Positions 2 to 30,177 of a stretch of DNA of 64,000 nucleotides are shown here, piece after piece; position 1 is the first letter of the stretch, and every line of letters starts with the position of its first letter. The DNA comes from a virus: IMG/VR virus record IMGVR_UViG_3300025949_000019, positions 1 through 64,000 of that record. One strand, 5' to 3'. Under the pieces are notes generated by a model. That model worked only from the letters and a program-made list of their open reading frames with translations. It was not told the DNA's origin and did no database searches. The translations under genes and the position numbers were made by a program.

Positions 2-142
2 CATTTGATCAAGCATCATTTGCCAAAAGAAAAGCACCAAGAGATATATAATAAGTTCGTAGAAGCTACAAGTAAAATGAAGAATGTCGATTCTACAAAA
101 GCAGTCGCACATTTGAAGAAAGAATTGAATACGCACGATTAG
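2..142 (+). CDS. C-terminal end of an unidentified protein
   Basis: An open frame enters from the left edge and ends at TAG (140-142), giving 46 residues that are Lys/His rich and end in KKELNTHD. The start and most of the protein lie outside the window, so no function can be given. The last codons and the stop form the acceptor stem and position 8-9 of the following tRNA, so gene and tRNA overlap by 10 bases. The frame is the only one open over this stretch. Confidence 0.6.
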   Translation, partial: HLIKHHLPKEKHQEIYNKFVEATSKMKNVDSTKAVAHLKKELNTHD

Positions 143-207
143 TTCATTGGTAGAACGCCGCTTCGACAAGGCGGATGTAAGAGGTCCGATTCCTTTATCG
201 TGCACCA
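133..207 (+). tRNA. tRNA with anticodon GAC (Val-like)
   Basis: Full cloverleaf: acceptor GCACGAT (133-139) pairs exactly with ATCGTGC (197-203), D stem GTTC/GAAC, anticodon stem CCGCT/GGCGG, T arm AGAGG/CCTTT with loop TCCGATT, discriminator A and encoded CCA. The anticodon loop TCGACAA (163-169) gives GAC, the Val reading of GUC, but position 33 is C instead of the near-universal U, so the decoding identity is uncertain. The acceptor stem overlaps the end of the preceding gene. Confidence 0.8.
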
Positions 208-235
208 GAATTTATAAAATAACTATGGAGATATT

Positions 236-499
236 ATGCAAGCACTTGGAAAGAATGTTCTTTTGAAGAAAGTAGAAGGTGAGCAGCAAATCGGTTCAAT
301 CTTGCTGCCGGGTCAACAAAATCAAAACCGTGGAGAGATTGTTTCTGTTGGAAATGATGTGCCTGCTGGTTTGTTTGCTGTCGGTGACCATGTGATCTAC
401 AACGGCGGAAAGCATGTTGCAGTTGATGGAAAGACATTCATTGCATCTGCATATGAAGATTTGCTTGTCAAAGTGAAAGACGCTGGAAACGTAAGCTAG
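236..499 (+). CDS. groES: GroES-like co-chaperonin
   Basis: An 87-residue GroES-family co-chaperonin, the functional counterpart of T4 gp31, which caps host GroEL so that the major capsid protein can fold. The sequence starts MQALGKNVLLKK, contains a mobile-loop region (about residues 15-32, GEQQIGSILLPGQQNQNRGE) and the typical GxVxSVG and VGDHVIY segments, and ends with the EDLLVKV strand. It is slightly shorter than bacterial GroES (about 97 residues). GGAG at 227-230 is a good ribosome site. Its last codons overlap the downstream tRNA-Met. The assignment is firm; specificity for the phage capsid is inferred. Confidence 0.9.
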   Translation: MQALGKNVLLKKVEGEQQIGSILLPGQQNQNRGEIVSVGNDVPAGLFAVGDHVIYNGGKHVAVDGKTFIASAYEDLLVKVKDAGNVS

Positions 500-559
500 T
501 CGGTAAACTGTTGCTCTCATACGGCAAACTCTCGGGTTCGATTCCCGGCGTTTCTACCA
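485..559 (+). tRNA. tRNA with anticodon CAT (Met or lysidine-Ile)
   Basis: Acceptor GGAAACG (485-491) pairs with CGTTTCT (549-555) with one G-U. D arm AGCT/AACT has one mismatch and its loop contains GG, anticodon stem TTGCT/GGCAA closes the loop CTCATAC, and the T arm is TCGGG/CCCGG around TTCGATT. Discriminator A and CCA are encoded. CAT may read AUG, or AUA if C34 is modified to lysidine. The first 15 bases lie inside the 3' end of groES. Confidence 0.9.
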
Positions 560-581
560 ACTCTAAGGATACACACACATC

Positions 582-815
582 ATGGCTCGAAAATGTTGGA
601 GTACGACCGCGTCTGTTGAAGTTGACATTTTCCTAGACGATCTAGACGATGAAACATTGCTAGAAGAAGTCGAAGCAAGAAATCTAGGAATTGTTTCGAT
701 GACTGCTGCTGGTTGGTGCAATGCACTTGCGGACGCATATCAACTAGGAGACACGAAAAAAATCTACGAGTTGAACAAAAAACTGATCGATGAAGTGACC
801 GGCAGGATCATTTAA
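582..815 (+). CDS. Small acidic protein of unknown function
   Basis: A 77-residue protein with an acidic first half (VDIFLDDLDDETLLEEVE) and a C-terminal helix rich in Lys and Glu. Short phage proteins of this acidic type are often seen next to GroES-type genes, but I do not recognise a family with a known role. AGGA at 565-568 lies upstream of the ATG. It is the last protein gene before the 2-kb RNA region, and a strong promoter begins 50 bases after its stop. Confidence 0.7.
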   Translation: MARKCWSTTASVEVDIFLDDLDDETLLEEVEARNLGIVSMTAAGWCNALADAYQLGDTKKIYELNKKLIDEVTGRII

Positions 816-866
816 TTTGGCAATCGATCCCAAGTCGGCAATAGAAAAATACAATAGAAAAAAAGC

Positions 867-895
867 TTGACACGGACACTAGATATCCGTATAAT
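867..895 (+). promoter_or_regulatory. Consensus sigma70 promoter for the large RNA region
   Basis: TTGACA (867-872), 17-bp spacer, TATAAT (890-895): a perfect match to the primary-sigma consensus. An A-rich stretch (841-864) upstream could act as an UP element. The spacer carries an inverted repeat, CGGA (873-876 region) and TCCG (886-889), which could be an operator. Transcription should start near 902 and run into a region with no protein gene. Confidence 0.85.
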
Positions 896-901
896 GTGTT
901 C

Positions 902-1384
902 TGTTGTTTGAGATGCGGTTTGCCTGCGAGGGAAACCAATCCTACAAGTAGGGAAAGAATCGCATCATCTTTGTTATGATATCGCTAATGGCTACTATAA
1001 TCTAACGGCTAGAGGTGACGTACCGATGAAGTAAGATACTAAACTCTATTTAAATCTTATATACATTGTGATGTTTTACGGGTCTAACCAGCCCGGGAGA
1101 TAAGTCCGATGTTCAGCTATTAGGGTTGAAATAGGATGTAGCGTGGAGCGAAAGCATTGAAGCGCACTTCGAAATTGGAATTATACTTAGTGTAACTTGA
1201 AACGTAGTACCCGTCCCTCGGATGCCACAAGTGTCTGAGGGACATTTGAAAAGCAATTTTGAAATACAGGTTGCTTTTCAAATTTGATTCTACTGTGTGA
1301 ACGTGTGGCTGAGTAAAACTATCGGCGGGTCTGAAGGCCCGAAACGTTGCCGAGCGTTCTAAGGTAGAATCATTTTATTTTTTT
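902..1384 (+). ncRNA. Structured non-coding RNA, first domain
   Basis: About 480 bases with no credible reading frame, beginning at the expected start site of the consensus promoter. Helices seen directly: GATGCG 912-917 with CGCATC 961-966, a CCTAC/GTAGG hairpin at 941-952, GTCCCTC/GAGGGAC at 1213-1243, a perfect 12-bp stem at 1245-1256/1271-1282, and GATTCTAC 1286-1293 with GTAGAATC 1364-1371. The last helix is followed by a T-rich run (1372-1384) that may terminate or punctuate transcription. A CGGC/GCCG helix (1323-1352) is nested in it. It may be a separate RNA or the 5' part of a single RNA reaching 2786. Function unknown. Confidence 0.7.
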
Positions 1385-1385
1385 C

Positions 1386-1462
1386 GCGAGGGTAGCTCAG
1401 AGAAAGAGCAGCGGCCTTAATTGAGCCGAAGGTCGGTGGTTCGATTCCATCCCCTCGCACCA
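1386..1462 (+). tRNA. Unusual tRNA with enlarged anticodon loop
   Basis: Acceptor GCGAGGG/CCCTCGC is fully paired, D stem GCTC/GAGC and T arm GGTGG/CCATC with TTCGATT are normal, and A plus CCA are encoded. Two parts are abnormal. The D loop AGAGAAA lacks the conserved GG, and the anticodon arm (1411-1429) is two bases too long: CGGC/GCCG closes a nine-base loop CTTAATTGA. The anticodon could be AAT (Ile) if C1416 and A1424 stack as a mismatch, or TAA (Leu) if U33 is 1417. It sits between the two large RNA domains. Confidence 0.7.
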
Positions 1463-1470
1463 GATTTATA

Positions 1471-1557
1471 GAAGAAAAGCAATGAAACTCTAAAACAGAG
1501 TTTCGTATTTTTCATAGCAGCCACTATGATGAATTGATTTGGAGATTGCTTTTCTTC
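1471..1557 (+). ncRNA. Three-way hairpin junction between RNA domains
   Basis: A perfect 13-bp stem joins 1471-1483 to 1545-1557 and encloses two further perfect hairpins: GAAACTCT/AGAGTTTC (1484-1504) and TCATAG/CTATGA (1512-1528). The AGAAAAGCAAT core of the outer stem also occurs in the 1245-1282 hairpin. Such a long uninterrupted duplex is a plausible RNase III processing site separating the tRNA from the second large RNA; that role is inference. Confidence 0.6.
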
Positions 1558-1582
1558 TTCGTTCTTTAACATTCGATTTACA

Positions 1583-2786
1583 AGAATTAACGGGGTGTGT
1601 GAACTCCGTCATGTGGCGAAAGCTGCATGAAAAGATACTCTGTAGCGATACAGGAAAGCGGGAAGCTTACATTACCGCGGGCTAGCTAACTATCCTCAAT
1701 TACACAAGCCTCAGTCCACGGGTGACCGTGATATCGGTGAAAAGAGCGCCGGTATGAAGTATGACGTTGAGAGTAGGGAAAGAGTCATGACTTAAACGCT
1801 TCACCTTCGGGTGAAGGAACGTTAGTCGTGAAAGAAGAAACAGGTGGTGCTGTCTCTCCTACAAAACCATTCAATCAGTACAGAGACTAAAGGGTAGCGT
1901 AATATCTTCGAGACTAGCACTCTAGAGGGATTATGCAGAATAATTGGTTTGTGGCCTATGCGAAAGCTGTGATGGACATGTACCGAGAAATTCGATTGAG
2001 TAGTCCTTGGCGGGATGAAAAATACGTGGCGAGTGGCATATTGGAGACCAAAAGTTTCTGACACCACTGGATGCGCTCGTCGCAGTAAGTTCATAGATGC
2101 TCTAAGGTAGAGCGTTTCCCTTTCATGGAAAATGCAGTTGGTTCGATCCCAACCTATATTACAAAAATGCAAAGACGCATCCTGTGTTAGTGCCAACAGA
2201 AGAAAATGGCTTAAATCTGCACGTCTTCGGACGAATGCAGGAATTCGAAACTCGCAAGGTCTAGAATTTTGATGTGGAAGCGCACGGTTGGGATTAGCGT
2301 CCCTTAACAGCCCGCAAGGTTGACGGTAGCAGAAACGTCGAGTAGCCTAACACGAAGCTTGAAATGCAACAAGCCTAAAAATGCAGCCATGAAGACATAG
2401 CTATTTGATAGCTGGACAAGTCAGAAAGGTAAGGGGTAGCACCCGAATCCGTAACCTGAACAAAAGAGTCTTCACAAAAACGTATAGTCTCAGCGTTTAT
2501 AAGATTTCATTAGTATTCGCCGTGGTGCCATACAAACATATTGACATTTGAGTTTGCAACTAGGCGATTAGCGTTGGACCGGTTATGATGAATCGTACAA
2601 GCACGGTGAATGCTAATGAAATTTTCATAGTTCGTTTTGTAGAGCATAGTCCGTTGTGGTTATCTAAAGACAAGCCTAGATGAGGCGTAATTGAAAAGTC
2701 GATGTGTACAGTCGATCTGATCAGGCAACCTTGCTATGCTGCACAAAGCGAATTGCGTAACCGCTCAGGGTAATGGCGATAATTCT
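1583..2786 (+). ncRNA. Giant structured non-coding RNA, about 1.2 kb
   Basis: No credible gene is present on either strand. Its ends pair: AGAATTA (1583-1589) with TAATTCT (2780-2786). Inside are many canonical motifs: stems capped by GAAA (1610-1629), GCGA (CTGTA/TACAG, 1640-1653), GTGA (CACGG/CCGTG, 1717-1730) and two UUCG loops (1800-1815, 2217-2240). There is also TGAAGAC 2390-2396 with GTCTTCA 2468-2474, AGCTA/TAGCT (2399-2413), and a roughly 20-bp helix linking 2504-2524 to 2602-2622. A tRNA-like domain is inserted at 2085-2162. Size, phage origin and association with tRNAs recall the GOLLD and ROOL classes of ornate large RNAs, but membership cannot be shown by eye. Confidence 0.75.
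2085..2162 (+). ncRNA. tRNA-Glu-like domain embedded in the large RNA
   Basis: D arm GCTC/GAGC with loop TAAGGTA, anticodon stem TTTCC/GGAAA with loop CTTTCAT (anticodon TTC), and T arm GTTGG/CCAAC with TTCGATC are all perfect. There is no CCA end. Instead the acceptor is ATAG/CTAT, an asymmetric internal loop, then GTAA (2085-2088) with TTAC (2159-2162). It continues into GGATGCG (2069-2075) with CGCATCC (2176-2182). So the cloverleaf is closed into the body of the larger RNA rather than having a free 3' end. Confidence 0.75.
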
Positions 2787-2789
2787 CCC

Positions 2790-2798
2790 GATAAATAG
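2790..2798 (+). promoter_or_regulatory. T4-like late promoter motif
   Basis: GATAAATAG resembles the T4 late promoter TATAAATA and repeats a motif seen before many late genes in this window. It lies at the 3' edge of the large RNA, 90 bases before the next small gene and the tRNA cluster, and would transcribe them. Confidence 0.45.
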
Positions 2799-2887
2799 AT
2801 GATTCTTGGAAGCTGTTGGAACATACAGGAACTCCACGGATAACGCGCGTATCTAGAACAAAATTATCTGTATCATCGGCGGTTACA

Positions 2888-3046
2888 ATGAATTTCAGAA
2901 AGATCGTAATTGCAATCGTAATTCTAGCAACATTGTTGTTTGTTTTGCAGTCTGCAACTGATAAATATGTGACGGATCATCTTTGCCAGCAAGGTGAACG
3001 ATATCGTGTTACATTCTATGGTTACGAATGCATAAATAAGCAATAA
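2888..3046 (+). CDS. Small membrane or exported protein, unknown
   Basis: A 52-residue protein with a positively charged N-terminus (MNFRK) followed by a hydrophobic helix of about 18 residues (IVIAIVILATLLFVL), then a short polar tail with two cysteines (HLCQQG and YECINK). It could be an inner-membrane protein or an uncleaved signal-anchor. An upstream TTG (2816) would extend the frame, but the extension looks non-coding, so the ATG at 2888 was preferred. No strong ribosome site is present, so expression is uncertain. It sits 11 bases before tRNA-Ala. No family recognised. Confidence 0.5.
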   Translation: MNFRKIVIAIVILATLLFVLQSATDKYVTDHLCQQGERYRVTFYGYECINKQ

Positions 3047-3057
3047 GTGTTTTCATT

Positions 3058-3137
3058 GGGGATCGGGTCTGCCTGGCGTGGACACCGCACTTGCAATGCG
3101 GCTAATCAGAGGGGTTCGAGTCCCCTGTTCTCCACCA
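3058..3137 (+). tRNA. tRNA-Ala (TGC)
   Basis: Acceptor GGGGATC pairs with GTTCTCC with one G-U and one U-U mismatch. D stem GTCT/GGAC, anticodon stem CCGCA/TGCGG with loop CTTGCAA (anticodon TGC), T arm AGGGG/CCCCT with TTCGAGT. A and CCA are encoded. The variable region is longer than usual (about 8 bases). Confidence 0.85.
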
Positions 3138-3233
3138 ATTTCTAACAAGTTCCAAACCATCAAGCATGGTTCGGCGCGGGGATCACCGAGAGGACCCCAC
3201 AGGAGTATGCGAAAGTTACTAAAGATTACAAAT

Positions 3234-3308
3234 GCGGGCGTGGTCTAGTGGCTTGGGCCCCATCCTTCCAAGTTGGTGACGCGAGTTCGATTCTCGCCGT
3301 CCGCTCCA
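3234..3308 (+). tRNA. tRNA-Gly (TCC)
   Basis: Acceptor GCGGGCG/CGTCCGC, anticodon stem CCATC/GTTGG with one mismatch, loop CTTCCAA (anticodon TCC), T arm GCGAG/CTCGC with TTCGATT, discriminator T and encoded CCA. The stretch before it (3138-3233) has a perfect ACCAT/ATGGT hairpin but no gene. Confidence 0.9.
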
Positions 3309-3339
3309 AAACAGTAATAAAAGGCTCAGTATAGGCCGA

Positions 3340-3386
3340 CGCAATCAGAACAAAACGTCCATGGACATACGCTTGTTCTGATTGCG
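3340..3386 (+). repeat. Perfect 14-bp inverted repeat with a nested palindrome
   Basis: CGCAATCAGAACAA (3340-3353) is the exact reverse complement of 3373-3386, and the loop contains the palindrome GTCCATGGAC. No T run follows, so it is not a typical terminator. It lies between two tRNA genes and could be an RNA-processing hairpin or a protein-binding site. Confidence 0.7.
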
Positions 3387-3460
3387 ATTATAGATTTATA
3401 GTCAGACCTCGTTATCATAAGAGGATACAAAAACTCAACTGATCTGGCTTTAGTTACAAG

Positions 3461-3534
3461 TGCGCGGTGGTGTAACAGCAACACGCTAGGCTCATAACCT
3501 TGAACTCTGGGTGCGACTCCCGGCTGCGCTTCCA
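3461..3534 (+). tRNA. tRNA-Met (CAT), possibly initiator-like
   Basis: Acceptor TGCGCGG/CTGCGCT pairs at six of seven positions, with 1-72 unpaired (T-T), the feature typical of initiator tRNA. D stem GTGT/ACAC, anticodon arm CTAGG/CCTTG with loop CTCATAA, T arm CTGGG/CCCGG with TGCGACT, and CCA encoded. The 11-24 pair is T-A, as in elongators, so initiator identity is not settled. Confidence 0.85.
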
Positions 3535-3570
3535 TCATTTCAATATACATAAAAGGGAGAATAAAACAAT

Positions 3571-3822
3571 ATGGTTCTATTAACTTCTTGGGTTGCAATT
3601 GGAATGGTGCTGATCGCACTAGATGGCGGTCAATTAGATCAAAAAGCATTTGCATCAAACAAAGTCTTTATGTCTGAAGCTGATTGTCAAAAGGAAGTTG
3701 ATGGAGCAATTCCATTGTTTGACAGAGATGTAGAGGCTGGAAAGCTTGGCGGTTATGTCCTAAAATGTGTTCAAGTAGAATTGCGTCCTCCGCTGCCTAC
3801 CAAGAAAGAAAAAAAGAAGTAA
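3571..3822 (+). CDS. Small exported or membrane protein, unknown
   Basis: An 83-residue protein. The N-terminus is hydrophobic (VLLTSWVAIGMVLIAL, residues 2-17) and could be a signal peptide or anchor. The remainder has two cysteines (ADCQKEV and VLKCVQV) that could form a disulfide in the periplasm, and the C-terminus is a Lys-rich tail. GGGAG at 3553-3557 is a good ribosome site. It lies between tRNA-Met and tRNA-Gly. Cysteine-spaced small exported phage proteins of this type have no known function. Confidence 0.7.
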   Translation: MVLLTSWVAIGMVLIALDGGQLDQKAFASNKVFMSEADCQKEVDGAIPLFDRDVEAGKLGGYVLKCVQVELRPPLPTKKEKKK

Positions 3823-3835
3823 TACGCGCACCGAT

Positions 3836-3911
3836 GCGGCGGTAGTTCAGTTGGTAGAATAGGAGCTTGCCAAGTTTCAGGTCACGGGTTCGATCCCCGT
3901 TCGCCGCTCCA
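3836..3911 (+). tRNA. tRNA-Gly (GCC)
   Basis: Acceptor GCGGCGG/TCGCCGC, D arm GTTC/GAAT with loop AGTTGGTA, anticodon arm GGAGC/GTTTC (two G-U) with loop TTGCCAA (anticodon GCC), T arm ACGGG/CCCGT with TTCGATC, discriminator T and encoded CCA. Confidence 0.9.
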
Positions 3912-15007: not shown

Positions 15008-15211
15008 ATGAAACTGACTAAACAGGGAATCATCACCGAAGTTCGCACTGACGGTCTCGCTTGTGTTCGTTTTGGAACTGGACTTTGTGACGTTGAATGG
15101 GTTCGCTCGCGTGGTCATAAAGTCGGAGAGAAAGTGATTCTGATGTATGTACGTTCTGTTTCATTTGCAACGTGGGAAATTGCAGGAACACCTGAAAGGA
15201 AAGCAGCATGA
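15008..15211 (+). CDS. Unknown small beta-rich protein
   Basis: A 67-residue protein, MKLTKQGIITEVRTDGLACVRF onwards in short beta strands (VRFGTGLCDVEWV, VGEKVILMYV), consistent with an OB or SH3-like barrel. GGGACAG upstream is a modest ribosome site. Its stop overlaps the next start (ATGA). No annotated family known to me. Confidence 0.65.
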   Translation: MKLTKQGIITEVRTDGLACVRFGTGLCDVEWVRSRGHKVGEKVILMYVRSVSFATWEIAGTPERKAA

Positions 15212-15690
15212 GTGAACGCGATGAATTGAAGTATCATGACCTATATCTTGATCTTGATGGAGTCATGGTTGACTTCGACAAACACAAATATCGGATCAAG
15301 AATCATTTCGACTCCGATGCCGAAATGTGGGCAGAAATCAACAAAGTTCCTCATTGGTTCCTGAACCTCGATCCGATGCCAGATGCATTCGTTCTTTGGA
15401 ATTTTCTGAAACAATACAAAGTAACGATCCTAACTGCGATCCCGAGAACCGCACAGAAAGAACACGCTGCGGACGACAAACGCGAATGGGTCCACAGGTA
15501 TCTTGGGGAAGATGTTCCTGTCATTACTTGTTATGGAATCGAGAAACAGGAATACGCTGTTCGTGGTTATCGATCAGTTTTGATCGATGATACTGGTAGA
15601 AATGTTGGTCAATGGGTGCGGAGAGGTGGAACTGGAATCCTTCACCGCGATGCAGAAAATACAATTGCTTTTTTAAAGGAACTTCAATGA
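15208..15690 (+). CDS. 5'-nucleotidase-like HAD phosphatase
   Basis: A 160-residue HAD protein: YLDLDGVMVDFD (nucleophile and acid Asp, about residue 15), ILTAIPRT (motif II Thr) and VLIDDTGRN (motif IV). This layout matches the cytosolic 5'(3')-deoxyribonucleotidase type C family, which removes phosphate from nucleoside monophosphates. In phages it may tune nucleotide pools or recycle modified nucleotides. It starts within the previous stop and its stop overlaps the next ATG. Confidence 0.8.
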   Translation: MSERDELKYHDLYLDLDGVMVDFDKHKYRIKNHFDSDAEMWAEINKVPHWFLNLDPMPDAFVLWNFLKQYKVTILTAIPRTAQKEHAADDKREWVHRYLGEDVPVITCYGIEKQEYAVRGYRSVLIDDTGRNVGQWVRRGGTGILHRDAENTIAFLKELQ

Positions 15691-20201: not shown

Positions 20202-20230
20202 TATAAACACATTTGCCAGTATTTTAGCAG

Positions 20231-20239
20231 CATAAATAG
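20231..20239 (+). promoter_or_regulatory. Late-promoter motif joined to a -10 box before the tmRNA
   Basis: CATAAATAG (T4-late-like) runs directly into TATAAT (20240-20245), which could serve as a sigma70 -10 element without a good -35. Either would start the tmRNA precursor near 20248-20252. Confidence 0.5.
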
Positions 20240-20251
20240 TATAATGGTGTA

Positions 20252-20550
20252 GCTGTAAAGAATGGTTGTAAACTTGCATGAAAGAACGCTCGGAACACGC
20301 GGGTTCGACTCCCGCCATCTCCACCAAAGAATTTTCGCATTAGCGGCAGCCAATAGAAGAAGGCCGGGGAATATAAGCTGAGAATTCTTTAGTGGGGATG
20401 TAACGGATATCGACTCTGAGTAAGTATGTCATATAAGCAACCCGTGAATCGCTCACGTTAAACAGAGAAAAAACAAAATTTAATCGCAAATGATGAAAAT
20501 TTTGATCTAGCTCTTGCTGCGTAATTAGCAGTAAGGTAAGCCGGGGTTTT
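20252..20550 (+). ncRNA. ssrA: Circularly permuted (two-piece) tmRNA
   Basis: The 3' (acceptor) piece comes first: a T arm GCGGG/CCCGC around TTCGACT (20299-20315), CATCTCC (20316-20322), A and CCA (20324-20326), closely like the 3' end of bacterial tmRNA. The 5' piece follows at 20394 with GGGGATG, which pairs with the upstream CATCTCC to complete the acceptor stem. A 67-base spacer separates them, and its AAGAATT (20327-20333) pairs with 20383-20389. Downstream are the resume codon GCA (20486), a tag frame ending in TAA, and the helix CTTGCTGC/GCAGTAAG around the stop. The P2 helix CTGAG/CTCGG also forms between the pieces. tmRNA frees stalled ribosomes and tags the protein for degradation. 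Confidence 0.9.
20486..20524 (+). other. tmRNA proteolysis-tag reading frame
   Basis: GCA resume codon followed by AAT GAT GAA and onwards, giving the tag ANDENFDLALAA then TAA. With the alanine carried by the tmRNA the full tag would be AANDENFDLALAA. The hydrophobic LAA end is the signal read by ClpXP-type proteases in proteobacteria. Confidence 0.9.
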
Positions 20551-20592
20551 GGGAGATGAACCTAGCAACAGAATCATCTCCCATTTTCATTT
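20551..20592 (+). terminator. Terminator of the tmRNA precursor
   Basis: GGGAGATGA (20551-20559) and TCATCTCCC (20574-20582) form a perfect 9-bp stem, followed by ATTTTCATTT. Confidence 0.85.
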
Positions 20593-20614
20593 ATACGGAG
20601 AGAAAGGCTATTCA

Positions 20615-21292
20615 ATGCAAAAAACGATGATTTGTTTAATCCTAGACCGCAGCGGTTCAATGGCAGGTCTACAGCGTGATGTGATTGGTGGTGTGAATAC
20701 ATTTATCGCAGAACAAAAGAAACTTCCAGACCCAGCAATTCTAACTGCGGTCCGTTTCGATTCAAATGGTTTTGGTTATGGTAATCTCAATACAGTAAAT
20801 ATTGAGCGTTTCATTTCTATGAAAAATCTTCAAGAAGTAAATTCCCTGACTGAAAGTGATTTCGTGCCTCGTGGCGGTACTCCATTGTTGGATGCAATTG
20901 GAGAAACCATCCTGAAGCTTGATCATGATTGGCAGGAATATCATCCCGATAAATGCATCGTCGTGATCTATACTGATGGTCAAGAAAACTCGTCAGTCAA
21001 GTTCACAAGGCCGCAGATCAAACAATTGATCGAAGCACGTCAGGGAACCGGAAAGTGGGCATTCCTATTCCTAGGTGCAAACATCGATGCAGTTGGTGAA
21101 GCCACTTCGATGGGAATCTGGGCGCAGAATGCAGCTCAGTACACAAATGATGGTATTGGTCTTCGAGCAGCATATTCAACTACTTCAGCAACAGTCTCAG
21201 CAATGAGGTCAACTGGCTCAACAATGGCTGATTGGGGTGGAGAAATCAAAGCTGCTATTGAAAAAACAGAGGAAAAGGCAGACAGCAAGTAA
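20615..21292 (+). CDS. von Willebrand factor A domain protein
   Basis: A 225-residue vWA protein. The MIDAS metal site is visible: DRSGSM (residues 10-15), a conserved Thr in RGGTPLLDA (about 88) and VIYTDGQEN (about 122). It binds partner proteins through a metal ion. Phage vWA proteins of this size are usually stand-alone and of unknown target, sometimes linked to MoxR-type AAA ATPases. AAAGG and GGAG lie upstream of the ATG. The in-frame upstream extension falls inside the tmRNA terminator and was rejected. Confidence 0.85.
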   Translation: MQKTMICLILDRSGSMAGLQRDVIGGVNTFIAEQKKLPDPAILTAVRFDSNGFGYGNLNTVNIERFISMKNLQEVNSLTESDFVPRGGTPLLDAIGETILKLDHDWQEYHPDKCIVVIYTDGQENSSVKFTRPQIKQLIEARQGTGKWAFLFLGANIDAVGEATSMGIWAQNAAQYTNDGIGLRAAYSTTSATVSAMRSTGSTMADWGGEIKAAIEKTEEKADSK

Positions 21293-26117: not shown

Positions 26118-28187
26118 TTATCCAAAGAATGTTCTTAGATATGTCTGATCATCATTTCGTGTATCAGGCATCGGTAGGTTCATATTATTGTTTGTATTAA
26201 CACTGTTCACTGAGGTAATAATGGGTGCAGCAGCAGGCGCCCTAGAGTTATTTTTATCATTCATATCCTGCAATTGATTTGCTTGTCCAGAAGCCAATAA
26301 AATCTTTCTTCCACTGTCTTTTTGTTGTGGTGCAACAGGTGCAACCATTGGACCGTTTTGTTTCATGGAAATCAGTTTCATCATTGCATCATTTCCATAG
26401 TTTTCAGCCATTGGTCCAGAGCCGTTGTATCTACTAAAGGCTCCACGAAGATTGCCACCAGATTGTTTCAATTTCAATTTCATAAACAGTGCAGAGGTCA
26501 GTAAGGCTACTCTATAATCACCTCTGATCTGATCTTGCGTTATGTTTGTACCGAAGTTATCATTCACATCCTTCAATGCATCTGGTCTAATTTGAGTGAT
26601 ACCAACCGCAGTTCCACTATCTCCATCCGGTACATTCAATTTACCACTAGACTCTTTTCTGACAATAACAGCAAGGGCTTCTGGTGGAACTCGACCATCG
26701 ATGCTGCCATCGACTCCCTTCATTGCAGAAGCCGCATCCACAGCCGCCCTGATTGCATTTCCCGGAACTTCACCGACTGTCAATGGGTCATTCGATCCAC
26801 TCGCAGCATCTTTTTTTACTGGTTCTGGAGTCGTTGATGTTGGGGCTTTTTGTGGCTGTTGTACGGCTTCTGGTGCCGTAGTCGGCGCTCTTTTAATGAT
26901 GCCTTTCTGGTGATTTGTTGCAACCTGAATAGGTTTATCACCTGGCTCTTGTGGATTGAAGGCTTCCGATACGACTTTGGTTGCAGCATGAACATATCCT
27001 GTATTTGCAGTAGCAGCCTTCATCTTTGCTCTCATGTCCGCATCTTGCTTGTCGTTTTCTTCACTTCTTTTTTTAGCAGCATCAGAGGCGTCAGCAAGAA
27101 CTTGACTACTTTCTTTTCGTTGTGTATCTGCTTTTGCAAGGAAGCTATCACCTAGGCTACCCAAACCAATAGATTTTAGGACATGACCAATAGCTTCTTC
27201 TGCATCTGCAATGATGTTCTTTGTTCCAGCCGTTAGAGTTGCTTTTGTACTTTCAAAGTAGTCTGTGAACAGATTATCTACTCTAAATTTACCGTAGTCA
27301 GAACTCAATTGTGCTACGATATCATCGTTCTTATGCTTTTCTTCAATGATCTGGCCAATCAACTTTGGAATTTTACCTAGTTTGTTTTCCATGAAGTCTT
27401 TTATGAAACCGTTTAGTTTATCACCACCAAGGAATCCTGCAACACCACCAACGATGGTACCAATTATTGCACCTACAGGTCCCTTCAACATACCACCAAT
27501 TGTTCCAAGTGTAGTAGCCTTTGAGATTGCATTTAAAGCGCCACCATTCTTGTTACCAGCTAGCATTCCAATTAAACCACCCATCAATGGGTTTGTTCCC
27601 CATTCTTTTGAATTGCTAACACCTTGGTATGCGTCGTAACCAGTAATTGCCACGGAGGCACCATACTTCAGGAAGTTACCAATTGAGAAAACATCCTTTG
27701 CTGTGTTCATCAATGAGCCAGTTTGTTTTCCTCTTTGTTGCGGCATGATCTTTGGTGTCGTTACTTTCTGCATTGCTTGTTCTTGCTTCAGGCGTACAAT
27801 GTTACTCTGTGCGGAATCCTTAGCCTGCATCTGGTTACTGATGTTAAGACGATTTTCAATTTCCTTTAGACGTTCATCGATTGATATTAGATATTGAGTT
27901 TGGTTGTTTGTCGAATGAGCTAAGACTTGGGTTACCTTCTCGGAGTTGTATGCGGCTGGCGTTTCTCTTTGAACAATAGAAGCCTGAGAACCAACGACTC
28001 GTCTAGCATTTCTTCTAGATTCTGGTTCTGATGCTAATGTGGTGTCTGCAACCTTTCCAAGACCGTACTTCTTCTGGAGGCCACGGTAAAACCCCTCTAA
28101 TGCATCCTTCGGAATCGAAGCAATGCCATGACCTTTGTCGATCTTGGCTGCTACTTCATCTCTGATGTTTACGTCCTTGACTGCCAT
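26118..28187 (-). CDS. Tape-measure-like tail protein with SLT lysozyme domain
   Basis: A 689-residue virion protein. The N-terminal 150 residues are charged and coiled-coil, followed by a Gly-rich hydrophobic region (GMLKGPVGAIIGTIVGGVAG, about 235-255) typical of tape-measure proteins that cross the membrane. From about 490 there is a lytic transglycosylase domain: ALAVIVRKESSGK (catalytic Glu), GITQIRPDAL and AFSRYNG. It probably sets tail length and locally cuts peptidoglycan during DNA entry. It lies after gp26 in the minus-strand hub operon, where T4 has gp29. AGGA precedes the ATG. No close T4 relative for the enzyme part. Confidence 0.75.
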   Translation of the reverse strand: MAVKDVNIRDEVAAKIDKGHGIASIPKDALEGFYRGLQKKYGLGKVADTTLASEPESRRNARRVVGSQASIVQRETPAAYNSEKVTQVLAHSTNNQTQYLISIDERLKEIENRLNISNQMQAKDSAQSNIVRLKQEQAMQKVTTPKIMPQQRGKQTGSLMNTAKDVFSIGNFLKYGASVAITGYDAYQGVSNSKEWGTNPLMGGLIGMLAGNKNGGALNAISKATTLGTIGGMLKGPVGAIIGTIVGGVAGFLGGDKLNGFIKDFMENKLGKIPKLIGQIIEEKHKNDDIVAQLSSDYGKFRVDNLFTDYFESTKATLTAGTKNIIADAEEAIGHVLKSIGLGSLGDSFLAKADTQRKESSQVLADASDAAKKRSEENDKQDADMRAKMKAATANTGYVHAATKVVSEAFNPQEPGDKPIQVATNHQKGIIKRAPTTAPEAVQQPQKAPTSTTPEPVKKDAASGSNDPLTVGEVPGNAIRAAVDAASAMKGVDGSIDGRVPPEALAVIVRKESSGKLNVPDGDSGTAVGITQIRPDALKDVNDNFGTNITQDQIRGDYRVALLTSALFMKLKLKQSGGNLRGAFSRYNGSGPMAENYGNDAMMKLISMKQNGPMVAPVAPQQKDSGRKILLASGQANQLQDMNDKNNSRAPAAAPIITSVNSVNTNNNMNLPMPDTRNDDQTYLRTFFG

Positions 28188-28192
28188 ATCTT

Positions 28193-28390
28193 CTATTTCC
28201 TATTTGCTAGTGCTTGGTTCTTTTGTCGTTCGACTTCTTCTTCAATGTGAGCCATCAATAATTGAACATATACATCTAGCTCCCACGGCATCATTGATTC
28301 AATCTCAGATAGTGAATATTTGTGGTGTTGCATCATCGCAAAGTTTGTGAGATAGTAATTTCGCAAACTGTCATTACAAAAGCTTATCCA
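28193..28390 (-). CDS. gp51-like -1 frame extension of gp26
   Basis: Reading frame reached only by a -1 shift at the T7 run; it adds 65 residues, beginning WISFCND and including HHKYSLSEIESMMPWELDVY, to the gp26 chain (total about 305). The KYSL-E-E-MPWE-Y pattern is like tail-assembly chaperone extensions and small hub-assembly proteins of other myoviruses. No independent ribosome site is seen for its internal ATG codons (about 28331-28336). Confidence 0.7.
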   Translation of the reverse strand, partial: WISFCNDSLRNYYLTNFAMMQHHKYSLSEIESMMPWELDVYVQLLMAHIEEEVERQKNQALANRK

Positions 28391-29109
28391 AAAAAATCTT
28401 GGATTCCCTCCAATGTTATTTCTTCTTGGTAACCACATTTGCCACATTTAAATGATGACTTTCCGACAATCTTTGGTGCTGTGTCGAAGAAAGACATGAT
28501 CTTCTTCAAGTCGCCCTCTGATAGCTTTTCAAACCATTTGATAATATCTTCTTTCTTTTCGTCTTTGGTATAATGAATTCGTTCTGCATCATAGACATAT
28601 TCAACGCATTCTGCTACGATATCAAAGACTTCGGTTTCAGACGGATTATCCTTTGTTAGAATCTGTGCCATTGCATATGTCGGATATCTCATACCAACAC
28701 CGATATTGTCCGACAGCGGAATTTTGTTTGTATGCCCAGGCTTTGTTTCTACCTTCACATCTAACATGTTGAATGCAACCTTGGTTATACCACCACAAGG
28801 CTTCTCATTTACCAGATTCTTACACTCGAATTCCAAATCCTGAACCTCACCAGCAGAGCGAGCCCTTAGATGAATAAACAAATATTCAATGTCAATTATA
28901 GGCATGTTGTCCACATCAATATCATGCGGGCTCACGATGCAATTTTTTATGACCTGTTTGATCTGGTTTATCACATCCTTCGCATCATCAGATTCCTTTA
29001 CTAGCAGAAACAATTTCTTTTCTGCGACAGTGAAAGGGTGATACTTGATTGTCTTGTTGCTTGAAGGTAACTTCAATTCATATATCGGAACTGCTACATT
29101 AGGTAACAT
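28384..29109 (-). CDS. gp26: gp26-like baseplate hub subunit
   Basis: A 241-residue protein of the T4 gp26 baseplate family: VPIYELKLPSSNKTIKYHPF and VAEKKLFLLVKESDD at the start, then helical, with an added C-terminal zinc ribbon (CGKCGYQEE) and a CKNLVNEKPCGG segment. In T4 gp26 is a hub assembly protein. It ends with GAT TTT TTT GGA TAA, a slippery site just before its stop. Length is close to T4 gp26 (208). Confidence 0.8.
   Translation of the reverse strand: MLPNVAVPIYELKLPSSNKTIKYHPFTVAEKKLFLLVKESDDAKDVINQIKQVIKNCIVSPHDIDVDNMPIIDIEYLFIHLRARSAGEVQDLEFECKNLVNEKPCGGITKVAFNMLDVKVETKPGHTNKIPLSDNIGVGMRYPTYAMAQILTKDNPSETEVFDIVAECVEYVYDAERIHYTKDEKKEDIIKWFEKLSEGDLKKIMSFFDTAPKIVGKSSFKCGKCGYQEEITLEGIQDFFG
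28390..28396 (-). promoter_or_regulatory. -1 frameshift slippery site in gp26
   Basis: On the minus strand, T TTT TTT then GGA TAA: a seven-T X-XXX-XXX heptamer located one codon before the gp26 stop. Slipping -1 reads TGG instead and opens 65 further codons. Confidence 0.75.
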
Positions 29110-29118
29110 AGTGTATTA

Positions 29119-30177
29119 TTAACCTCCTCCTAAAAATTTATTGATAGAATTTGTACCAGATGAAATCAATGCGTTTGAAATTGGGTCCTTCGTCTGGCTC
29201 TTGTTGCCAATAATAGAAACACCAGCCCTTAACAATTGTGACGTTGACATTCCAGCAACAGCCAAGAACTTCCCTCCACCTGGAATAGATGGCAGCATAT
29301 TGAAGAAGAAATCTGTCAGAACAGAATGTGTCTTTGCTCCCGGATCGGATGGAATTGGTGCACTGATATCTGGCTCTGAATATGAAACTGTCTCCCATGA
29401 CCTATATGCAAAGGAAACTGACAATCTCATGTTTTCCTGATCCTGCCAAGAAAGTTGAATCGGCATCATTGCGACTGGCCAGCATTCATGGAAAACAACA
29501 CCGTAGATTGGTTGGTTGTTCATTGCATAGATCGTGATCTGTAAATCAGTCACGAAATTGTCATAGTATTCATACAGGTTGTTTGGGTCTCTCATCAAAT
29601 ACATCCAATAGTCAAAGAAATATTTCTCAACCATGTCTGCTGAAACCATGAATGACAAATTCAAATCCTGATAGATGATCTGATTTGGCATTCGCATGAT
29701 TGGCGCGTATGTCTTCACATCCGATGTTGTGAATGTATAACCTGGCAATTCAGCCATATCAGTTCTCATCATCAGGTGTTGTTGATCCGAGACTGTAGCA
29801 ATGCTCTTATGATCTGAGAGACCACCAGCATCAATCAATTCCTGCATCATTGGTGGTGGAACAAATGAACAATAAAATCGATTGTTCCATGCGACACCGT
29901 AACTCTGGATATCAACTAGGAAATCCTTCATCAACGACTGAGAATTATTCTGTGCGCCAGTTGGTCCACTCTGTCCTAGTAATCCACTGAATTGGTGTGT
30001 CAAACCGCCAACGACTCCATTGATTCCCGATGACAATGCTCCCGCAGCAGCAGAGGGAAGGCCAGAAAGACCACCGAGAGCCGATGACACGGACGATCCA
30101 ATACCATTCTGTATTACGCCAGATGCGGCTGAGACAGCCCCGGAAACTGATGGAACAAACGAGAAAATTGAGGTCAT
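29119..30177 (-). CDS. gp54: gp54-like baseplate tail-tube initiator
   Basis: A 352-residue protein. A Gly/Ala/Ser-rich N-terminus (SGVIQNGIGSSVSSALG) is followed by a tube-protein fold like gp19/gp54: RFYCSFVPPP, LPGYTFTTSDV, PIMRMPNQIIYQDLNLSFMV, YYDNFVTDLQITIY and QPIYGVVFHECWPVAMMPIQ (shown in pieces). These match the shared beta-sandwich of T4 gp54/gp48 and tail tube. gp54 sits on the baseplate and starts tail-tube polymerisation. Upstream in the same minus-strand operon are gp4 and a structural protein. Confidence 0.75.
   Translation of the reverse strand: MTSIFSFVPSVSGAVSAASGVIQNGIGSSVSSALGGLSGLPSAAAGALSSGINGVVGGLTHQFSGLLGQSGPTGAQNNSQSLMKDFLVDIQSYGVAWNNRFYCSFVPPPMMQELIDAGGLSDHKSIATVSDQQHLMMRTDMAELPGYTFTTSDVKTYAPIMRMPNQIIYQDLNLSFMVSADMVEKYFFDYWMYLMRDPNNLYEYYDNFVTDLQITIYAMNNQPIYGVVFHECWPVAMMPIQLSWQDQENMRLSVSFAYRSWETVSYSEPDISAPIPSDPGAKTHSVLTDFFFNMLPSIPGGGKFLAVAGMSTSQLLRAGVSIIGNKSQTKDPISNALISSGTNSINKFLGGG

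Follow-up and report, generated by a model that had tools for sequence, protein, structure and literature searches.

The locus described here raises the question of how a gp51-like reading frame, which overlaps the end of a gp26-like gene in the −1 frame, comes to be translated. It lies in a window of 64,000 nt (the whole stretch of DNA that was analysed), part of a 97.5-kb virus record. An earlier sequence-only reading had proposed that a programmed −1 frameshift joins gp26 to the gp51-like tail. The comparative evidence (the phrog_634 match, a heptamer in 84 of 88 loci, the pN/pS values and T4 gp51) strongly supports this proposal. Judged from sequence comparison, gp26 and the −1 ORF very probably constitute one recoded gene of this T4-superfamily phage, from which −1 programmed ribosomal frameshifting would yield a short and a long tail assembly chaperone. 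Recoding of this sort is known from most tailed phages, and the comparison supports it strongly for marine T4 relatives.

The gp26 gene and the −1 frame

On the minus strand the gp26 gene ends ...TTG GAG GGA ATC CAA GAT TTT TTT GGA TAA. The sequence-only reading had placed T_TTT_TTT one codon before the gp26 stop and predicted a 305-residue product with 65 new residues; both statements hold. The −1 ORF is open from 28447 to 28193, and a −1 shift gives 240 gp26 residues plus 65 new ones past the shared Phe-Phe (305 aa), with ...IQDFFWISF... as the junction peptide of the window's fusion. The interval 28193-28447, to which the frameshift had been assigned, is the −1 ORF; the functional junction is at 28396-28390. 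The features of the locus are collected in Table 1.

Table 1. Features of the gp26/gp51 locus, in window coordinates
Feature	Position	Strand	Remarks
Slippery heptamer T_TTT_TTT	28390..28396	−	One sense codon (GGA) 5′ of the gp26 stop
gp26-like short tail assembly chaperone ORF (putative function), 241 aa	28384..29109	−	PF12322, phrog_150; stop TAA 28384-28386
−1 frame tail (gp51-like)	28193..28396	−	67 codons from the heptamer plus stop; phrog_634, pN/pS
SD-like GGAGGG, putative frameshift stimulator	28406..28411	−	9 nt 5′ of the heptamer
KYSL...MPWE motif, conserved in the tail	28280..28321	−	Residues 26-39 counted from the heptamer; alignment A2
Tail tube protein (gp19-like), upstream neighbour	29119..30177	−	phrog_45 tail tube, E 3.8e-30
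Probable tape measure protein, 689 aa, downstream neighbour	26118..28187	−	phrog_167 tail length tape measure, E 2.5e-8

Genes on the minus strand run in the order head closure (gp4-like), DNA end protector (gp2-like), tail tube, gp26, −1 ORF and the tape-measure-like protein of 689 aa. The two-product gene 26/51 is located between the tail tube and tape measure genes, as for the lambda G/GT type. Among the 128 window ORFs of at least 80 aa, only three combine an in-phase classic heptamer within 150 nt of the stop with 25 aa or more of −1 extension; gp26 is one of these three. In a 160-aa ORF at 15208-15690 (+), T_TTT_TTA lies 19 nt ahead of the stop, beyond which the −1 frame stays open for another 52 codons. 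This ORF is probably not a case of frameshifting, because an ATG behind AAAGGAACTTCA may give the downstream ORF a start of its own.

The gp26 protein matches PF12322 (T4_baseplate) with an E-value of 8.5e-58 and 196.1 bits, exceeding the curated cut-off of 24.5, and phrog_150 (baseplate hub) with an E-value of 1.7e-64 over profile positions 7-232 of 282. For the −1 tail the matching profiles are phrog_634 (baseplate hub assembly catalyst, gp51; E 1e-25) and, at positions 231-277 of 282, the C-terminal part of phrog_150, so that both frames fit on a single family profile without a break. No credible family was found for the tail in Pfam. In an alignment of the tail from 27 loci (A2) the mean column identity is 66%, a Met-Met pair is nearly invariant, and the KYSL-MPWE pattern already remarked on in the sequence-only reading is conserved.

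The AlphaFold2 model of gp26 has a confident fold (mean pLDDT 88.8), and that of the tail is helical (pLDDT 76.9), with predicted helices at residues 11-25, 29-33 and 37-66. Fold comparison with the HK97 tail assembly chaperone gp13 (2ob9) gave a weak match (prob 0.41, E 3.4, 63 columns, rmsd 3.0), and the resemblance of the models is suggestive only. A sequence-based search of solved structures returned no match, and a fold search with the tail no significant match.

Conservation of the heptamer and of an upstream element

We compared 88 distinct junctions from viral contigs and annotated phages. Searching viral contigs with gp26 peptide patterns yielded 2 loci and with gp51 frame patterns 80 loci. 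These 80 contigs were picked partly by patterns containing the junction peptide, and the set not picked by it (locus L003 and the phage records) was therefore counted separately. Conservation of the T run in related phages, named as a check in the sequence-only reading, is borne out: an in-phase T_TTT_TT[C/T/A] occurs 0-2 codons 5′ of the gp26 stop in 84 of the 88 distinct loci, a retention that rules out chance, the loci sharing phylogeny so that such counts are non-independent trials. The heptamer is present in 22/25 of the separately counted set. Its last base is C in 51, T in 20 and A in 13 of the 84 loci. The T run begins at the third codon position in all 84; other runs of six or more T in gp26 occur in all phases. 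In every locus the −1 frame stays open for 161 nt or more beyond the gp26 stop, and the +1 frame for a median of 13 nt. The heptamer ranges over Kyanoviridae and outlying Straboviridae (KVP40, Aeromonas 65.2, Cronobacter S13), and is found also in phages of Sinorhizobium, Caulobacter, Stenotrophomonas and Desulfovibrio. It is missing from four loci: T4, which has a separate fused gene 51, and Vi01, VP-1 and D532 (Ackermannviridae or similar). The three Ackermannviridae-type loci (L009, Vi01; L012, VP-1; L104, D532) keep the gp51-like −1 frame with its MPW/APW motif without the T6 heptamer; VP-1 and D532 have a TAATG stop-start overlap, and Vi01 has neither heptamer nor overlap.

Homopolymer runs are error-prone in sequencing and T4 gp51 is a single-frame fusion, so one might suppose a sequencing or assembly error at the junction of what is really one gene, fused in frame. 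The same arrangement is, however, seen in independently sequenced isolates and in metagenomes, and gp26 alone is a complete family that ends exactly at the junction. We regard this explanation as having negligible probability and as already refuted by the comparative data.

The nucleotide sequence around the junction is constrained beyond what the protein demands. TTT encodes the first Phe in 84/84 loci (56.7 expected from each gene's codon use), and the codon before this Phe ends in T in 84/84 (51.1 expected). Further upstream, a conserved Glu-Gly has GAG as its Glu codon in 51 of 59 loci (13.5 expected), and the codon ahead of it ends in G in 42 of 59 (15.1 expected); these biases preserve GGAGG about 10 nt 5′ of the heptamer. 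The exact GGAGG stands at the window's spacing in 39/84 loci. Even though the loci are related, the synonymous bias at the signal is large. An SD-like element is thus both present upstream of the heptamer and conserved, by synonymous constraint across loci. In the window no −1 frame start lies at a usable distance 3′ of GGAGGG, and the element probably acts as a stimulator of the −1 shift. The E. coli dnaX −1 frameshift has an SD-like stimulator about 10 nt upstream, which the GGAGGG of the window resembles in position. The dnaX site differs from that of the window in its heptamer (A_AAA_AAG), in its downstream hairpin and in that the shifted product is shorter.

A T run could also lead RNA polymerase to slip, so that a fraction of the mRNAs would encode the fusion in frame. 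The window has seven consecutive T; only six are present in 64 of the 84 loci, and six T is short for polymerase slippage. Although transcriptional slippage is a known recoding route (PMC5009743), the phase of the run is irrelevant to a polymerase, yet it is invariant, and GGAGG at a fixed spacing points to the ribosome. We therefore consider it extremely unlikely that the fusion arises at transcription.

Structured RNA 3′ of the slip site often accompanies a −1 programmed frameshift but is not required for one. No stem-loop was found downstream of the heptamer in the window (z 0.49; for the 40 nt past the heptamer, z about −0.2), and RNAalifold across 81 or 47 aligned sequences gave no conserved downstream stem-loop. 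Local structure is slightly in excess among the loci (mean z about −1.1 to −1.3, versus 0 to −0.7 elsewhere). The excess is due to some of them (for example L101, L004, L005, L030 and L068), the window not contributing, and strong hairpins are seen in some relatives (P-SSM2, S-SSM7, ACG-2014h and others). With no fold common to the loci, structure is therefore at most an optional, lineage-specific stimulator.

Entry into the −1 frame

Annotators use the conserved Met-Met as a start for gp51. In the stretch that leads from the gp26 stop to this Met-Met, the −1 frame has a pN/pS of 0.35 versus 1.05 and 1.32 in the other frames; values for the tail in the −1 frame are 0.21-0.35. On these ratios purifying selection acts on the tail, beginning with the codons directly after the gp26 stop. 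As the −1 frame is already selected ahead of the Met-Met, translation must enter it upstream of that Met. The locus combines an X_XXY_YYZ heptamer in phase with a −1 frame that is both open and selected.

The selection ahead of the Met-Met bears directly on the possibility that gp51 is a separate small protein begun inside the −1 frame, whether at the Met-Met, at a near-cognate start or by termination-reinitiation, with the T run a mere Phe-Phe codon pair. Annotators do give gp51 its own CDS in many isolates, and the Met-Met is nearly invariant. An ATG stands at the Met-Met in 40 of 47 non-redundant loci; an SD-like sequence precedes it in only 1 of these 40. In 46 of 84 loci no ATG, GTG or TTG occurs in the −1 frame ahead of the conserved core, until 13 codons past the heptamer. 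A separate start with a ribosome site, which the sequence-only reading had named as grounds for abandoning the frameshift, was looked for in the window: none of the candidates (two upstream ATGs, a TTG just past the gp26 stop and the Met-Met at about 28336) has an SD. The invariant phase of the T run, the synonymous constraint and the structure of T4 gp51, itself a through-fusion, also speak against an independent start, which we judge very unlikely.

Overlapping stop-start sequences (TAATG or TGATG), which would suit termination-reinitiation, are found in 10 loci including T4. They occur together with the heptamer in KVP40, D482, phiM12, Cr30, BUCT608, EniLVp02 and L038, and as the sole signal in VP-1 and D532. 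In these nine loci re-initiation may add to the shift or replace it; the window has no overlap.

Frameshifting at the heptamer is the economical account of how the −1 frame would be entered. The heptamer, its phase, the open and selected −1 frame, the synonymous constraint, the fused T4 homologue and the gene order are read from the sequence; from these we infer the slip itself, its efficiency and the role of GGAGGG as follows. The majority of ribosomes would end at the TAA and release gp26, the short chaperone. A fraction would be held by GGAGGG, paired with 16S rRNA, and this minority would slip back by one base on T_TTT_TTT, where both Phe tRNAs could re-pair perfectly. The slipped ribosomes would produce the gp26-gp51 fusion, a long chaperone made at a fixed ratio to gp26. 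The chaperone action we infer from the lambda pair gpG/gpGT. On this analogy, the gp26 part would form a coat on the tape measure protein, and the minor long form would use its helical tail to recruit subunits of the tail tube.

Relation to known chaperone genes and to T4 gene 51

The sequence-only reading saw a parallel with the tail-chaperone frameshifts of other phages, rightly, and called the shift unexpected for gp26, which is wrong. T4 gp26 and gp51 have been identified as T4-type tail assembly chaperones (Vladimirov, Gautam and Davidson 2022, Virology 566:9-15, as cited in PMC10885494 and PMC12846349), so that gp26 is just where one would expect such a shift. The short chaperone genes of T4-like phages are known to have poly-T slip sites (Vladimirov 2022, as cited in PMC12846349). 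With the chaperones and the slip sites already cited, the locus is no surprise: it belongs to a known kind and is well supported.

Like the window, phage lambda makes a short and a long product (G/GT) by a −1 shift between its tail tube and tape measure genes (PMC5009743), but it slips on GGGAAAG. P2 E/E+E′ resembles the window in its heptamer (T_TTT_TTG near the end of E), its −1 shift and the tape measure gene that follows; E has 91 aa against 241 aa for gp26. The window proteins have no detectable sequence similarity to lambda G/GT or P2 E/E′ (hhalign probability about 1% or less, with single-sequence queries). The chaperone genes of Vandenendeviridae and Andersonviridae, phage families other than the window's, also have a T-run slip site (GTTTTT) at the end of the short gene and a −1 frame that is always open (PMC12846349).

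In T4, gp26 is homologous to that of the window (PF12322, phrog_150), and the C-terminus of gp51 to the −1 tail (phrog_634). T4 differs in that the long form comes from a separate, divergently placed fused gene 51, and no slippery heptamer is present. Its gp51, a single-frame protein of 249 aa, spans phrog_150 from 13 to 280 and aligns with the frameshift fusions straight through the junction (233 columns, E 4.9e-13); the alignment of T4 gp26 to the same fusions stops at the junction. Some T4-like phages are described as having a short gene and a fused long gene in place of frameshifting (Vladimirov 2022, as cited in PMC10885494). The T4 proteins have been given as hub assembly chaperones, gp51 being required yet absent from the particle and gp26 disputed (PMC3004832); that gp51 is required but absent fits the chaperone reading. 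For gp26 and gp51, whose part in 'hub assembly' has long been obscure, the analysis supports the reading as a pair of tail assembly chaperones, one short and one long.

A 2016 review describes the −1 chaperone frameshift as widespread and conserved 'except T4' (PMC5009743); most T4 relatives examined here carry one. On balance we lean towards an SD-driven, dnaX-like gp26 frameshift without a required downstream structure being a widespread and probably ancestral route to the long chaperone in T4-superfamily phages outside the T4 group, with T4 gene 51 a derived, frozen copy of the frameshift product. Three points may be new: the synonymous constraint on the SD-like stimulator, how broad the conservation is, and T4 gene 51 as a derived gene. 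There is also a consequence for annotation: some of the annotated isolate records viewed lack gp51, the others have it as a separate CDS, and none joins it to gp26. In the annotated phage genomes L099, L100, L101, L105, L102 and L103 the gp51 frame is unannotated, so that gp26 is followed by a gap of about 160-190 nt.

Elsewhere the window carries a phage-borne permuted tmRNA gene at 20208-20615 (+), an unusual cargo for a T4-like phage. It is of the two-piece alphaproteobacterial type, with the tag peptide ANDENFDLALAA (ARAGORN), matches Rfam RF04321 (95.6 bits) and RF01849 (74.1 bits), and suggests an alphaproteobacterial host. A GOLLD giant structured RNA (RF02032, 174 bits, full model) is found at 2026-2496 (+) within a cluster of seven tRNA genes (133-3911), and a tRNA-like match at 2093-2157 lies inside it.
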